In this document: positions 9,340 through 13,994 of the stretch, piece after piece
Position numbering within the stretch: position 1 is the first letter of the stretch
How the letters are laid out: every line of letters begins with the position of its first letter
Assembly (NCBI GenBank): GCA_004153385.1
Contig: SDAL01000001.1
Location: 1,671,228-1,735,227, forward strand
Length of the DNA: 64,000 nucleotides
Reading direction: 5' to 3'
From: Paracoccaceae bacterium
Lineage (GTDB): Bacteria; Pseudomonadota; Alphaproteobacteria; Rhodobacterales; Rhodobacteraceae
Notes under the pieces: model-generated
The model's input: the letters and a program-made list of their open reading frames with translations, nothing else
What the model was told of the DNA's origin: nothing
Database searches by the model: none
Position numbers and translations under genes: made by a program

Positions 9340-9828
9340 TCAGTGGCTGTGGCCCGCGTGGCTGTGGCCGGTGGCGTCAGGCGCGCCAATCTCGACATGG
9401 ACGGGCAATGTGCCGTGATCGGTCTGCAGCTCCAGATCGAACGCCTCGCCCTGCACGAGGGCCGCGTCCAGTCCGGTGATCTGCAGCGCCAGCCCGTTCG
9501 GCTCCAGCCGCAGCGCGTGACCCGCGTTCAACGGCATCCGGTCAACGGGCTGCAAACGCGCCTGCCCGTTTTGCAGCGTGAACCCCACCAGTTCGGCAGG
9601 CGCGCCGCGTGGCCCCTGCGCGCCGGTGATCATAAGGCGATCGGTGCCGGTATTTTCCAACTCCATAAACACCAGCGCCGTATTGCCTGTGGTTGCGCGC
9701 GTCCACGCATGGACAGCCCGCAGATCACCGTGTTGCGAGACATGGCTGTGATGGTCGTGGCTGCTGTGGCTTTGGGCGAGCGCACAGACCGGCGTGGCCA
9801 GCATGGCCAGAAGGACGAGAAGACGCAT
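9340..9828 (-). CDS. His-rich PCu(A)C-fold periplasmic protein lacking the usual copper ligands
   Basis: 162 residues: signal peptide (about 1-21), a His-rich stretch directly after cleavage (HSSHDHHSHVSQH), a PCuAC-like immunoglobulin fold (about 40-145) and a His-rich C-terminus (HSHAGHSH). Known PCuAC proteins bind Cu(I) through the H(M)x10Mx21HxM set; here the matching places read ELVGF, ARLQ and NGLALQI, so His and Met ligands all appear lost. Metal binding, if any, would move to the two histidine tails. It is the last gene of a four-gene operon with an FtsX-like permease, an ATPase and an exported CPFC protein, 17 bp after the permease. I infer a periplasmic metal carrier; the metal is unknown. 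Confidence 0.75.
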   Translation of the reverse strand: MRLLVLLAMLATPVCALAQSHSSHDHHSHVSQHGDLRAVHAWTRATTGNTALVFMELENTGTDRLMITGAQGPRGAPAELVGFTLQNGQARLQPVDRMPLNAGHALRLEPNGLALQITGLDAALVQGEAFDLELQTDHGTLPVHVEIGAPDATGHSHAGHSH

Positions 9829-9845
9829 GGGAAAAGGCCTTTCTT

Positions 9846-11159
9846 TCAACTGCGCAGGGAGGGAACGACGGGTTGGCGCAAAACCATCACCGCCGGAACA
9901 AGTGACAAGATCAATGTGACGGATATGAAACCGGCGAGGAAATGCAGCTCTGCCCAGCCAAGCGGTGCGGTGATCACGATATCTGTGCGCGCACTCACAA
10001 CCCGTGACAGCACACTGGCCGCGCCTATCCCCGTGCCCAGCCCGAGGACCGCGCCCGCCAGCAGCAAGGCCGCCCCGAACGACCACACGACCGCAAACAC
10101 GAAACGCGCAGGCGCCCCCAAGGCCCGCAACAGCGCGATCTGGCGCCGGAACAGCCGCGACAGGATGAACAGCCCCAGCAGCACCGCCGCCGTCACCAGC
10201 ATTTGGGTCACCAGCACCAGAAGCGACATGATCTCGCGGATATTGCCCAGCACCTGATACAGCTGCGCCAGAACCGCGCCGGGAAAAAACGCCATGGTTT
10301 CACGGTCACGGGTGAAATCCGAACGCAGCGCATAATTGGCCCATAGCGCGTCGGAGCGCACGACCACCGCAGGCGTGCCGGGGAAATATGCGGGATCGAA
10401 CGGCGGGCCTATCTGTGCGCCGCGCTCGGGGGCGTGGCCGTTGGCAAGGCCATGCACTTCCCACACCGTTTCTACAGGCACAAGGATTGCGCGGTCCCAC
10501 GGGGTGCCTGTGGGTGCAAGCCGGCCGGTGATGGTCAGTTGCGCACCGCCATGCGCACCCGCATCGGCCCCGTCGCCATGCCCGTGGGCGGGGGTGAAAC
10601 TGTCCCCGATGTCCAGCGGCACCAGTGTGCCTGCCAACGCCTCGGACGATGTGGCCCACATCCGGCCCGTGATGTGCCCCTCCGCCAGATAGGAGGCGAA
10701 CGCGGCCGTGGTCCCGATCACGGGCGCGGCCCCGTAACTGTCACCAAACGCAAGTGGCGCTGCCACAGCGACATTCGGTGCATTCGCGATTTCGTTGTAG
10801 GTGACCCCGTCCAGAAGCGCCATGTCAGAGGGCTGCAAGAACACCGATGCCATCATCACGGTTATCTCGCTGCCCGGTGCGGCAATCACCAGATCGAATT
10901 TGTCGGCAGCCTGCGCGGTGCCTTGGCGCAAGCCGCGTTCCTGCGCCAAAAGGCCGATGCCCATTCCCACCGAAATCGCGATCAACGCGACAAACAGGAC
11001 CGAGGCCCCGCGAAAACGCCACAAGATCGCGCGCACCAGCGGCCAAGGCGCAAAGCCACGCAGCACCACGCCCCCCAGCACGACCGACGGCGCCAGCAGA
11101 AGAAGCATCACCACGATATCCTGCCACAGCGCAGGCAGCGCGTTCCAGACCGCCATCAT
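9846..11159 (-). CDS. FtsX/MacB-like ABC transporter permease with a His-rich periplasmic loop
   Basis: 437 residues with four predicted membrane helices: one at about 15-35, one at about 50-75, and two or three at the C-terminus (about 305-435), framing a long periplasmic domain. This is the layout of FtsX-type permeases, which work by mechanotransmission rather than a classical channel. The periplasmic domain holds a His/Asp/Gly-rich insertion (TPAHGHGDGADAGAHGG, about residue 205) that suggests metal contact. The ATG overlaps the stop of the ATPase gene (ATGA), so translation is coupled. It probably pairs with that ATPase. A related arrangement is the zinc-linked Zrg operon of Vibrio, cited from memory. 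Confidence 0.8.
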   Translation of the reverse strand: MMAVWNALPALWQDIVVMLLLLAPSVVLGGVVLRGFAPWPLVRAILWRFRGASVLFVALIAISVGMGIGLLAQERGLRQGTAQAADKFDLVIAAPGSEITVMMASVFLQPSDMALLDGVTYNEIANAPNVAVAAPLAFGDSYGAAPVIGTTAAFASYLAEGHITGRMWATSSEALAGTLVPLDIGDSFTPAHGHGDGADAGAHGGAQLTITGRLAPTGTPWDRAILVPVETVWEVHGLANGHAPERGAQIGPPFDPAYFPGTPAVVVRSDALWANYALRSDFTRDRETMAFFPGAVLAQLYQVLGNIREIMSLLVLVTQMLVTAAVLLGLFILSRLFRRQIALLRALGAPARFVFAVVWSFGAALLLAGAVLGLGTGIGAASVLSRVVSARTDIVITAPLGWAELHFLAGFISVTLILSLVPAVMVLRQPVVPSLRS

Positions 11160-11854
11160 TGCGCGCCCTCCGCCGTGTTGGGGGTCGTGTCACCGCTCAC
11201 TGTGCCATCTGTTATGCGCAAGACACGGTCCATACGCGCGATCAGGCGGGGATCGTGGCTGACCGCGATCAGGGTGGTGCCGGTGCGGCGCACAAAGGTG
11301 ACAAGATCATCGATCAGCCGGTCTGCGGCGGCGCGATCAAGGCTTGCGGTGGGCTCGTCTGCCAGCAGAACCGGTGCGTTGCTGGCCATCGCACGGGCAA
11401 TCGCCACACGCTGGCGCTCGCCACCCGAAAAACTGGTGACATTGCGCGCGCCCGTGCCTGACAGCCCCAGACGCGTCAGGTTTTCACGCGCGCGTGCCCG
11501 CAGGCCGGCGCGGGCTTTTCGTGGATGAAACAGGGCAGACAGGGCCGCGTTATCCGCCGCGCTCAATTCCTCGAACAACAGAAAATCCTGAAAGATCATG
11601 CCGATCGTCTCGCGCCGGAATGCGGCGCGGCGCTCGGACCCCAAGGCCAGTATATCCTGCGCGCCCCATCGCACATGACCGCGCGCCGCAACCAGCCCCG
11701 CAAGCGCGAACAAAAGCGTGGATTTCCCCGCCCCCGATGGCCCCTCCACCCCCACAAGTGCACCCGATGGCACATCAAGCGCAGGCACCGATAGCAAGAC
11801 ACGGCCACGCGGATCGCGCACCTCAAGCCCGGCGATAGACAGCGACGGTCCCAT
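11156..11854 (-). CDS. ABC transporter ATP-binding protein (LolD/MacB-like)
   Basis: 232 residues. Walker A G-P-S-G-A-G-K-S-T, Q-loop region MIFQDFLLF, signature [15 protein letters not shown], Walker B VLLADEPTASLD and the H-loop AVSHDP are all intact, so it should hydrolyse ATP. Size and the E-x-P-T-A-S-L-D signature fit the LolD/FtsE/MacB subgroup, which partners FtsX-like permeases. The ATG at 11854 follows the stop of the exported-protein gene with one base between; a TTG at 11863 is an alternative start. It powers the permease encoded next, with which it overlaps by four bases. Confidence 0.9.
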   Translation of the reverse strand: MGPSLSIAGLEVRDPRGRVLLSVPALDVPSGALVGVEGPSGAGKSTLLFALAGLVAARGHVRWGAQDILALGSERRAAFRRETIGMIFQDFLLFEELSAADNAALSALFHPRKARAGLRARARENLTRLGLSGTGARNVTSFSGGERQRVAIARAMASNAPVLLADEPTASLDRAAADRLIDDLVTFVRRTGTTLIAVSHDPRLIARMDRVLRITDGTVSGDTTPNTAEGAQ

Positions 11855-11855
11855 A

Positions 11856-12296
11856 TCAGCCAAAGCTCGCCTGCATCAGCCGCATCATCGACACGAAGCC
11901 GGTTTCGGGGTCTGTGTAGGCGCCTGATTCCAGCACGCCGGAGGTCACGATCTTTTTGTTGAACGGCGTCACATCCACGATGCGTTTGGTGTAGACGGCC
12001 AGAATGTCATTGGGCCATTCCGCCTCGCTTTCGCAAAACGGGCATACAGCCATCGGCATTTTGGTCAGCACGAAAAAGCGGCTTTGGGCTTTCAGCGGGG
12101 GCGCCATAAAGCCCCACACATCGATACGCTCCCCCATCCGCGCGCGCGCCAGATCCGAAAGGCCGCGGCCGCGCGCCTGATAGAGCGCGCGCAGCCGGAT
12201 GGGCCCGGAACCGTTGGAACCGGCGCGTGACACCCCTGGGCGCAGCAGCATCGGTGCGCCCAGAGAGGCAGCAAGTAAGTGGCGACGCGTCATCAT
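11856..12296 (-). CDS. Tat-exported protein of unknown function with a CPFC motif
   Basis: 146 residues. The N-terminus (MTRRHLLAASLGAPMLL) looks like a twin-arginine signal, cleaved near residue 26. The mature part shows IDVWGFMAPPLKAQSRFFVLTKMPMAV followed by CPFC (about residues 90-93) and an aromatic segment; the paired cysteines could bind metal or haem, or form a disulfide. I do not recognise a named family with confidence; it resembles small exported proteins of the DUF3299 kind that accompany zinc-linked ABC operons. It is the first gene of the operon: GGAG lies about nine bases upstream of tandem ATGs. Split here from longer text would be misleading, so function is left open. Confidence 0.65.
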   Translation of the reverse strand: MMTRRHLLAASLGAPMLLRPGVSRAGSNGSGPIRLRALYQARGRGLSDLARARMGERIDVWGFMAPPLKAQSRFFVLTKMPMAVCPFCESEAEWPNDILAVYTKRIVDVTPFNKKIVTSGVLESGAYTDPETGFVSMMRLMQASFG

Positions 12297-12347: not shown

Positions 12348-12377
12348 AAGGGCCCCTAATGCACGCAGGGGGCCCTT
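12348..12377 (-). terminator. Hairpin after the alkaline phosphatase gene
   Basis: Perfect 9-bp stem AAGGGCCCC / GGGGCCCTT with a 12-base loop, 28 bp past the phoA-like stop codon on the minus strand. No T-tract follows, so termination is plausible but not certain. Confidence 0.5.
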
Positions 12378-12404: not shown

Positions 12405-13904
12405 TTACTGGGCGGTGACCGCGTGATGCATGACATGAAACAGCACGTTCTGCTCGAGCGTACCATCGACCAGATGCGCCCACGGGCCAACCGCGTAGGC
12501 CGCGACATCTTCGCCCGAATGGCTTTCTGAGGATTTCGGCAGCAGCGATTGCTGAACGAAATCGATATCGGTCGCGTCTGCCTGGCTGAGATCCGCGCGG
12601 CCTTCGGGGGCTGCGAATGTGCCGTCTTGCTGTTCCATCAAGACCGCGCCCGGCCCGTTGAGATACCCGATGATCGAGTAGGGCTTGCCATCATCGGCCA
12701 GAACCAGATCGTCGGAATGCGCGATGCCTTCTTGTGCCACATCATAGCACAGGCCGGTGATATCGGAGCCGCGCCCGCAATAGCCGTTGAACGCGATCGA
12801 ATGCTCGTGATCGGCGGTTACAATCACCAGCGTCTCTGCCGGATCGACCATTTGCAACGCAGTGGAGACCGCATCGGCAAACGCCACACCATCGATCAAT
12901 GCGCGGCGGGCGTTGCCGCCATGGTTGGCGTGATCCACACGTCCGGCCTCGATCTCAAGGTAGTAGCCGTCCTCATTCTGGCTCAGGTAATCGATCGCGC
13001 TGGCGGTCATATCGGCAAGCGACGGCTCTTCGTCGTCGGCACGATCTGCCTCGTAATCCATGTGGCTGTTGTTAAACAACGCCAGCACGGGGGCATCATC
13101 CGCCAATGCCTTGAACGACGCGGTATCGGTGGCCACTTGCGCGCCCATATCTTTGGCACGCTCCACAAGGTTCGTCCCGTCGGTACGGTTGCCGGTGGAT
13201 TTGCCCAGCGTCTCGCCTTCGGGCAGGAACGCACGGCCCCCGCCGCCCATCACCAGATCGATGGTGCCCGCATCCATCGCATCGATCAGCTGGGTCGCGA
13301 TATCACGTGAGGTTTCGCATTCCGCCGGCACCTCGGATTCCCAGTTGCGGTTGGCGGTTTTGGCATAGACGGCGGCAGGGGTCGCATGGGTCACCCGTGC
13401 GGTGGACACGATGCCCACCGATTTGCCCATATCGCTTACGATTTCCGCGAATGTGGTCAGCTCGTTGCCGGCCTCGGTGGTGCAATCATCGTGGATCGCG
13501 TTCTCGCCAAGGTTGATCAAGTTGAAACGCTGCTTCACACCGGTGTTCAGTGCGCCTGCGGTGGGCGCTGAATCAGGGGTTTGGGCGTTGATGTTATAGG
13601 TCTTGATCAGGGCGGAATGGAACTGGGGCGTCTCGTAGGGTAGCACGTGCTCCTCGCCCAGTTTGCCCTCCTGCTGACCTGCAAAGACACGCGTGGCATA
13701 GTTTGTGCCAACCCCGTTCCCGTCGGCCACAAGAACGATCACGTTCTTGGCGCGATTGGTGTTGTCCTGACGGTCAATGATGGCCTGAATGGCATCCTGA
13801 CCTGCGGTGAACCAGTCGCTGGAGGCTTGTGGCAGCTGGGTGTCTTGCGCGAATGCGGAGGTCGCAGCGGTCATGGCCAGCACCGAGATGGAGACGAATT
13901 TCAT
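12405..13904 (-). CDS. phoA: Alkaline phosphatase (PhoA family), periplasmic
   Basis: 499 residues with a Sec signal (about 1-19, ending AFA-QD). The metal and nucleophile motifs are visible: VLVADGNGVG near residue 60, the nucleophile serine in PDSAPTAGALNTGVK, VDHANHGG and TADHEH near the C-terminus. The enzyme hydrolyses phosphate monoesters in the periplasm using two zinc and one magnesium ion, releasing phosphate for uptake. Start at 13904 gives the signal peptide; the open frame runs eleven codons further upstream without a better ribosome site. Expression under phosphate limitation is expected from the family, but I could not identify a convincing Pho box. A 17-bp palindrome lies at 13995-14011. 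Confidence 0.93.
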   Translation of the reverse strand: MKFVSISVLAMTAATSAFAQDTQLPQASSDWFTAGQDAIQAIIDRQDNTNRAKNVIVLVADGNGVGTNYATRVFAGQQEGKLGEEHVLPYETPQFHSALIKTYNINAQTPDSAPTAGALNTGVKQRFNLINLGENAIHDDCTTEAGNELTTFAEIVSDMGKSVGIVSTARVTHATPAAVYAKTANRNWESEVPAECETSRDIATQLIDAMDAGTIDLVMGGGGRAFLPEGETLGKSTGNRTDGTNLVERAKDMGAQVATDTASFKALADDAPVLALFNNSHMDYEADRADDEEPSLADMTASAIDYLSQNEDGYYLEIEAGRVDHANHGGNARRALIDGVAFADAVSTALQMVDPAETLVIVTADHEHSIAFNGYCGRGSDITGLCYDVAQEGIAHSDDLVLADDGKPYSIIGYLNGPGAVLMEQQDGTFAAPEGRADLSQADATDIDFVQQSLLPKSSESHSGEDVAAYAVGPWAHLVDGTLEQNVLFHVMHHAVTAQ

Positions 13905-13994
13905 TTGGATCACATCCTGTAAGATCATAAGGCGCATGCGCCGGAACGGGTTCTGGGCACGGGATAATCACCGAATGTAACATCTATGTGTTCA

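Follow-up and report, generated by a model that had tools for sequence, protein, structure and literature searches.

The window, a stretch of 64,000 nucleotides (nt) of DNA from a Paracoccaceae bacterium, carries on its minus strand an operon for an ATP-binding cassette (ABC) system of the Zrg type that follows directly on phoA, the gene for an alkaline phosphatase. The system may be best understood as a module dedicated to this enzyme, in which ATP would drive the loading of a metal, most likely zinc, into PhoA in the periplasm; we give this explanation about an even chance. The preliminary description had recognized a tight operon of four genes, here called geneA to geneD, and all four open reading frames (ORFs) are indeed present on the minus strand at 9340-12296. 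geneA and geneB overlap by 8 nt (with the TTG start of geneB) and geneB and geneC by 4 nt, while geneC and geneD are separated by 17 nt. The four-gene box nevertheless omits the most telling gene. The conserved unit starts one gene earlier, at phoA, which lies immediately upstream of geneA on the same strand at a distance of 108 nt. The features of the unit are as follows.

12405-13937, minus strand: phoA, PhoA-type alkaline phosphatase (PF00245), first gene of the conserved unit
12348-12377, minus strand: GC-rich hairpin between phoA and geneA, with a perfect stem of 9 base pairs (bp)
11856-12296, minus strand: geneA, exported CPFC protein, an ORF with a twin-Arg-like leader and a predicted oligonucleotide/oligosaccharide-binding (OB) fold
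12033-12044, minus strand: CPFC motif of geneA (C85, C88), from alignment rows
11156-11863, minus strand: geneB, ABC ATPase, LolD/MacB/YbbA-like, with a TTG start (ATG at 11854 also possible)
9846-11159, minus strand: geneC, FtsX/MacB-type permease with a large periplasmic domain, from Pfam FtsX and an AlphaFold model
10551-10586, minus strand: His-rich loop of the permease, H192 to H203, from alignment rows
10452-10454, minus strand: conserved permease His H236
10434-10436, minus strand: conserved permease His H242
9340-9828, minus strand: geneD, exported PCuAC-fold protein (PF04314), start inferred
9343-9366, minus strand: C-terminal tail HSHAGHSH of geneD, from alignment rows

Linkage of phoA and the module across genomes

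Genes in related genomes were located by hidden Markov model searches of all reading frames. When the window's own genome and 60 relatives were searched with the permease, homologues at 35-65% identity turned up in five other genomes and weaker ones (33% identity or less) in further genomes; 15 congeners gave none. The order phoA-geneA-geneB-geneC is kept in four of the five genomes, which belong to four genera. The fifth, G050, has phoA-geneB-geneC without geneA.

A geneA profile scanned against named genomes gave at least 552 confirmed relatives, of which the best 80, a biased sample, were used for the analyses; 289 genomes of the class and 295 of the family served as less biased samples. 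phoA stands directly upstream of geneA in 78 of the 80 best relatives, including one locus where it is cut by the contig end (L102) and one where it is split (L117). The other two are L060, which begins at geneA, and L116, which has no phoA at that position. The permease gene lies downstream of geneA in 78 of the 80 loci as well, the exceptions being L054 (contig end) and L121.

Among the 295 family genomes, strong geneA matches were found in 29 and PF00245 matches above 200 bits in 28. Both genes occur in 25 genomes, where they are adjacent on one strand, geneA without intact phoA in four, intact phoA only in three and neither in 263 (Fisher p = 6e-29, for genomes that are not independent of each other). 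A looser cut, accepting any PF00245 match with E ≤ 0.001, gave 26 genomes with both, three with geneA only, six with PF00245 only and 260 with neither. The geneA genomes without a PF00245 match are G747, G763 and G805, and a fourth genome, G788, has a broken phoA adjacent to geneA. This broken gene (G788:C6:473712-475118) stands beside an intact-looking module. A decayed copy with adjoining fragments of phoA and geneA was noticed at G870:C12:990651-991184.

Strong geneA matches occur in six of the 289 class genomes, four of them with phoA adjacent. Of the other two, G114 has geneB divergently upstream, its contig breaks off and PF00245 finds no match in it, while in G135 the phoA position is taken by a DUF885 protein. 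Among 398 genomes of the phylum there are 11 with a strong geneA. phoA is adjacent in all eight loci examined besides that of the own genome (G525 and G358 lie outside these eight), and PhoA is divergent in seven of the eight. G183 provides a further locus with phoA adjacent. A distant geneA homologue with no permease gene alongside was seen in G092 (L127, 7974-10749), next to a ZnuA-type binding protein and a NicO nickel/cobalt permease.

The phoA product matches PF00245 with E = 4.3e-103. Its likely start is the ATG at 13904, and a Sec-type signal peptide was judged by eye. Among solved structures, alkaline phosphatases of the intestinal and placental types are the closest. Nine positions, which we take to be the metal ligands and nucleophile of the PhoA family, were checked in 77 rows, after exclusion of those below 700 bits (the cut L102 and the split L117). 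Seven are kept in 77/77 rows, the nucleophile in 76/77 and the first Asp in 75/77. The linked PhoA is accordingly predicted to be a zinc-type alkaline phosphatase with intact metal and nucleophile residues. It is mostly not lipoprotein-like, with a lipobox-like sequence in just one of the 77 rows. PhoA of Escherichia coli holds two zinc ions and one magnesium ion per subunit, which are acquired outside the cytoplasm.

The module proteins and their kinship with Zrg systems

The geneB product matches ABC_tran in Pfam (9.7e-30). It also matched 202 NCBIfam families, and for all 25 of those listed its score stayed under the family's cut-off. The geneC product exceeds the Pfam cut-off for FtsX only barely (26.0 bits against 25.5, E = 1e-5), and its AlphaFold model, with a predicted local distance difference test (pLDDT) score of 88, has structural matches to LolCDE, MacB and HrtBA. 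Scores for the NCBIfam equivalogs were 145 bits for LolD (cut-off 307.75) and 14.2 bits for LolC/E (cut-off 362.45), which leaves the pair outside LolCDE. geneB and geneC together form a type VII ABC pair (MacB/LolCDE/FtsX), an ATPase with an FtsX-type permease bearing a periplasmic domain. In proteins of the FtsX/MacB type, ATP moves the periplasmic domain and no substrate is channelled through. The FtsX-type, non-importer character given to the permease in the preliminary description agrees with these model matches, LolCDE, MacB and HrtBA being, to our knowledge, not channel-type importers.

Four periplasmic His residues of the permease are conserved. H192 and H236 are present in all 79 rows, comprising the window and 78 relatives, and H203 and H242 in 78 of 79; a 600-bit limit removed none of the 78 relatives. 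In an alignment of 22 permeases, eight of them Zrg-like, H192 was kept in 22/22, H203 in 21/22 and H236 in 22/22. Zrg permeases of the relatives match the permease of the window at about 27-29% identity. In a tree of 55 permeases, 43 fall on one side of a branch with 100/100 support, of which 39 are phoA-linked (one with a broken phoA) and four are others. Seven Zrg permeases form a separate 100/100 group, at which, as the program warns, long branches meet. In L231, L232, L233 and L235 (families f13 and f63) a third group was noticed, in which FtsX permeases and ATPases occur with weak DUF3299/geneA-like proteins; L232 has three such proteins in a row.

geneA matched no Pfam family above cut-off. 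The motif CP[FYH]C is present in all 80 geneA rows, and in a set of 49 rows C85 and C88 are invariant. Two N-terminal Arg residues are nearly invariant in the same number of rows, which suggests export by the twin-arginine translocation (Tat) pathway. Searches of the Protein Data Bank with the geneA sequence, singly and as a profile, gave nothing convincing. The AlphaFold model (pLDDT 85), as submitted to Foldseek, found PA4066 (4hsp) as the top match, with E = 6.4e-4 and template modeling scores of 0.49/0.48. This was the sole fold match with E < 0.001 among 350,542 chains, other OB-folds following from E = 4.6e-3. Comparison of profiles of the mature parts by hhalign gave a probability of 94.1% (P = 1.3e-7) for geneA (86 rows) against DUF3299 (19 rows), whereas four control pairs gave 0.1-0.6%. 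The DUF3299/ZrgE family model, PF11736, has no match in the own genome. On the evidence of profile and predicted fold, geneA is therefore regarded as a remote homologue of ZrgE/PA4066 and not as a member of the DUF3299 family.

The geneD product belongs to PF04314 (PCuAC, 2e-15) by profile and shares its fold with the PCuAC copper chaperones, but differs from them at the metal site. The four canonical copper-ligand positions (His/Met) are changed in the window protein and in 42 of 43 aligned rows, the remaining row keeping one Met. geneD also has a His-rich N-terminus and an HxHxGHxH motif, which is found in 43/43 rows and forms the very end of the protein in 40/43. The own genome encodes two further PCuAC copies that retain the canonical ligands. 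The two His-rich proteins claimed in the preliminary description are thus real, and their His residues are conserved in the alignments of the permease and of geneD.

Resemblance to the Zrg operon had been thought to hold only in outline, but it goes deeper. The ATPase, the permease (through three shared periplasmic His) and geneA (through the DUF3299 profile and the PA4066 fold) all have Zrg counterparts. As in ZrgABCDE of Vibrio, an ATPase, an FtsX/MacB-type permease, a ZrgE-like exported protein with an OB-fold and a His-rich exported protein are encoded in one operon; the three His are held in common with the Zrg permeases of the relatives, the comparison with Vibrio being made through these and not through a Vibrio sequence. 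Unlike ZrgABCDE, the module has no ZrgA (PF10986 has no match in the own genome), whose role geneD probably fills. It further differs in having PhoA at the head of the operon and, in the relatives, a PHO box, a Zur box being unsupported, and its permeases fall on a separate supported branch. From these comparisons we class the module as a sister of the Zrg systems that is linked to PhoA.

In the Vibrio studies, Zrg operons act under zinc starvation and are read as zinc importers (PMC9820375, PMC9817125), ZrgA being required for growth of V. cholerae in low zinc and read as the binding protein of the ZrgBC transporter (PMC9820375). The PA4063-PA4066 operon of Pseudomonas aeruginosa has the same kind of gene set, and its PA4066 is the fold match of geneA. 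It differs as a Zur-regulated operon of four genes with a proposed role in pyochelin-cobalt export, and no phosphatase gene is mentioned in the available text (PMC8561739, PMC11481552). The module resembles LolCDE, MacB and HrtBA in permease fold and ATPase class. It is set apart from them by scores far under the LolD and LolC/E cut-offs and by the conserved periplasmic His, and no lipoprotein or tripartite pump partner was noticed. None of the four genes encodes a ZnuA-type binding protein (PF01297), copies of which lie elsewhere in the own genome.

Upstream sites and the intercistronic hairpin

Upstream of phoA in the relatives there is a PHO box, in which two half sites resembling TGTCAY are spaced by 11 bp. 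The motif was learned from 50 upstream regions, the window included. A further 31 loci were skipped there because the enzyme-core pattern was not found; 25 of them form the held-out set, L056 and L093 have too little upstream sequence, and L060, L102, L116 and L117 were unscored. Most of the distant phoA genes were likewise left unscored with the held-out set, no enzyme core being found in them. Scores of at least 10 bits were reached in 45/50 learning regions, compared with 12/50 on the other strand and 5/50 after shuffling, and in 21/25 held-out loci, compared with 4/25 and 0/25, respectively.

A Zur pattern was taken by eye from the gap between znuA and a Fur-like gene of the own genome. 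Scanning with it gave one site with three mismatches at 13918-13932, which is 13 nt before the ATG taken as the likely start of phoA. The window holds 13 such Zur-like sites against 10.6 expected, or about one per 6 kb by chance, and no Zur box convincing beyond chance was found at the operon. Elsewhere in the own genome (L184, 2520-2570), inspection by eye showed two Zur-box-like palindromes in the interval that separates a ZnuA-type gene from a divergent Fur-family match below cut-off.

Among the 50 phoA-geneA gaps with a clear start, 37 contain a perfect stem of at least 8 bp, compared with 24 of 1000 shuffles. In 32 of the 37 the stem begins 17-28 nt after the phoA stop, and a T-rich tail is present in 13. 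The hairpin probably lowers expression of the distal genes and could be a terminator in some loci.

Proposed function of the module and other explanations

The neighbouring zinc enzyme, the conserved His and Cys residues of the exported parts and the kinship with zinc-starvation systems make hand-over of metal to apo-PhoA the simplest reading; the metal, its direction and PhoA as the client are what we infer from them. geneD, whose PCuAC scaffold bears His tails, and geneA, with its OB-fold and CPFC motif, would be the holders or carriers of a transition metal, zinc being the most likely. ATP hydrolysis by geneB would be converted into motion of the periplasmic domain of geneC, whose conserved His would join in the hand-over, and under zinc scarcity apo-PhoA in the periplasm would receive the metal. 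The module would be made together with PhoA, under PHO control in most of the relatives scored, and the hairpin behind phoA probably holds the machine below the abundance of the enzyme. The metal-ABC reading of the preliminary description survives in that metal handling by an FtsX-type system is still the best reading. It had missed phoA, however, and with this gene upstream the likely purpose changes: the ABC system would not handle metal in general but would be linked to a zinc enzyme.

Parallels for such a supply are available. Animal alkaline phosphatases are activated by the dedicated zinc transporters ZnT5-ZnT6 and ZnT7 (PMC7949119), and the closest solved relatives of this PhoA are the animal enzymes that these transporters serve. 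The analogy is functional; the ZnT proteins are unrelated cation diffusion facilitators. NosDFY and NosL show that an exported metalloenzyme, here nitrous oxide reductase, can be matured by an ABC module (PMC7660919). NosDFYL is similar in design only, an exported metalloenzyme, an ABC transporter and a periplasmic metal protein being encoded together; it concerns a copper-sulphur cluster and not zinc, and no sequence kinship is claimed.

Several observations weigh against metal loading of PhoA. The window's own phoA has no clear PHO box, the best site reaching 7.2 bits. geneD is present in only 42 of the 80 loci, and no substitute common to the loci without it was found when one was looked for. 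Three of the 28 family genomes with intact phoA have no geneA (G732, G772 and G873). Conversely, geneA stands by itself in G747, and the ABC genes persist with no phoA in G763 and G805. In the class sample, PF00245 exceeds 200 bits in 14 genomes and geneA is adjacent in only four; G050 has just the ABC genes, and along the stretches read nine others show no module. Outside this group, most PhoA enzymes therefore manage with no such module; a strong link holds for the geneA family and, within this bacterial family, for its PhoA group, but does not extend to PhoA in general. G135 carries a DUF885 protein at the phoA position. Finally, the Zrg relatives are read as importers (PMC9820375) or pyochelin-cobalt exporters (PMC11481552), not as metal loaders.

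Alternatively, the module might bring zinc (or cobalt) into the cytoplasm, the role put forward for ZrgABCDE, with co-expression of PhoA reflecting a zinc demand raised by phosphate starvation. The low-zinc requirement for ZrgA in V. cholerae (PMC9820375) speaks for this, and so does the Zrg kinship of the permease and geneA. Two full-length ZnuA-like proteins are, however, already encoded in the own genome, and next to each lies a Fur-family match (one of the two under cut-off). We know of no import path through permeases of the FtsX/MacB/LolCDE type, the operon has no convincing Zur box, and the close tie to a single periplasmic enzyme would be left unexplained. We consider import unlikely, though it deserves real weight. 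That the linkage is to the enzyme would also fit a module acting on PhoA itself and not on a metal, in membrane release, folding, quality control or surface passage, in the manner of LolCDE or MacAB-TolC. The permease model has its best matches in LolCDE and MacB, and the CPFC motif could be redox-active. Handling of PhoA itself is nevertheless quite improbable in our view, given that the linked PhoA is so seldom lipoprotein-like, that no gene for a membrane-fusion (MacA-like) or outer-membrane partner was noticed alongside (no specific search was made) and that the conserved His of two proteins and the zinc-starvation kinship would go unaccounted for.

Export of a metallophore-metal complex or of excess cobalt, as for PA4064/PA4065, has in its favour that deletion of PA4065 in a znuA zrmB background leads to accumulation of pyochelin and cobalt (PMC11481552); the conserved permease His could meet such a complex. 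The link to phoA and the PHO box find no explanation there, and no metallophore synthesis genes were noticed by the operon, although no specific search was made, so that we regard export as very improbable. A copper system, for instance one delivering copper to oxidases, is the least probable of the explanations considered. It could draw on the membership of geneD in PF04314 and on G035 (L031, 4418-7266), where a CopA-like ATPase and a MerR/CueR-like regulator, read from sequence, adjoin the phoA operon. The changed copper-ligand positions in 42 of 43 geneD rows, the retention of canonical ligands by the other two PCuAC copies of the own genome and the zinc enzyme as partner all argue against it.

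No description of a phoA-linked Zrg-like operon was found in the titles and abstracts of the open literature, a search that left subscription papers mostly outside. The function of Zrg-type systems is in dispute, a zinc importer being proposed in Vibrio and a pyochelin-cobalt exporter in Pseudomonas. With one branch tied to a well-known and easily assayed zinc enzyme, the question becomes testable by a simple phosphatase assay. A PhoA that needs its own ATP-driven metal supply would bear on the zinc limitation of organic phosphorus use in marine bacteria, and also on the way in which secreted metalloenzymes obtain the correct metal outside the cytoplasm.

It is possible, though we hold it doubtful, that Zrg-type ABC systems in general are ATP-driven loaders of metal into exported enzymes and not importers, with a client that can change; the phoA-linked branch would reveal this role because client and machine are encoded together. 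On this reading there would be a bacterial counterpart, built from unrelated parts, to the supply of animal alkaline phosphatases by ZnT5-6/ZnT7. In G135 (L125, 1887-3093), geneA-geneB-geneC lie 40 nt behind the DUF885 protein, in which an HEGxPGHH motif was read from the sequence. This protein is a possible second client enzyme.

Other genes were noticed at some loci. A PBP_like_2 protein is encoded next to phoA-geneB-geneC in G050 (L035), and a GDPD beside an unlinked phoA in L223. A phytase-like esterase lies close to the operon in L034 (6284-8431, PF13449) and, as read from sequence, in L055, L075 and L116.

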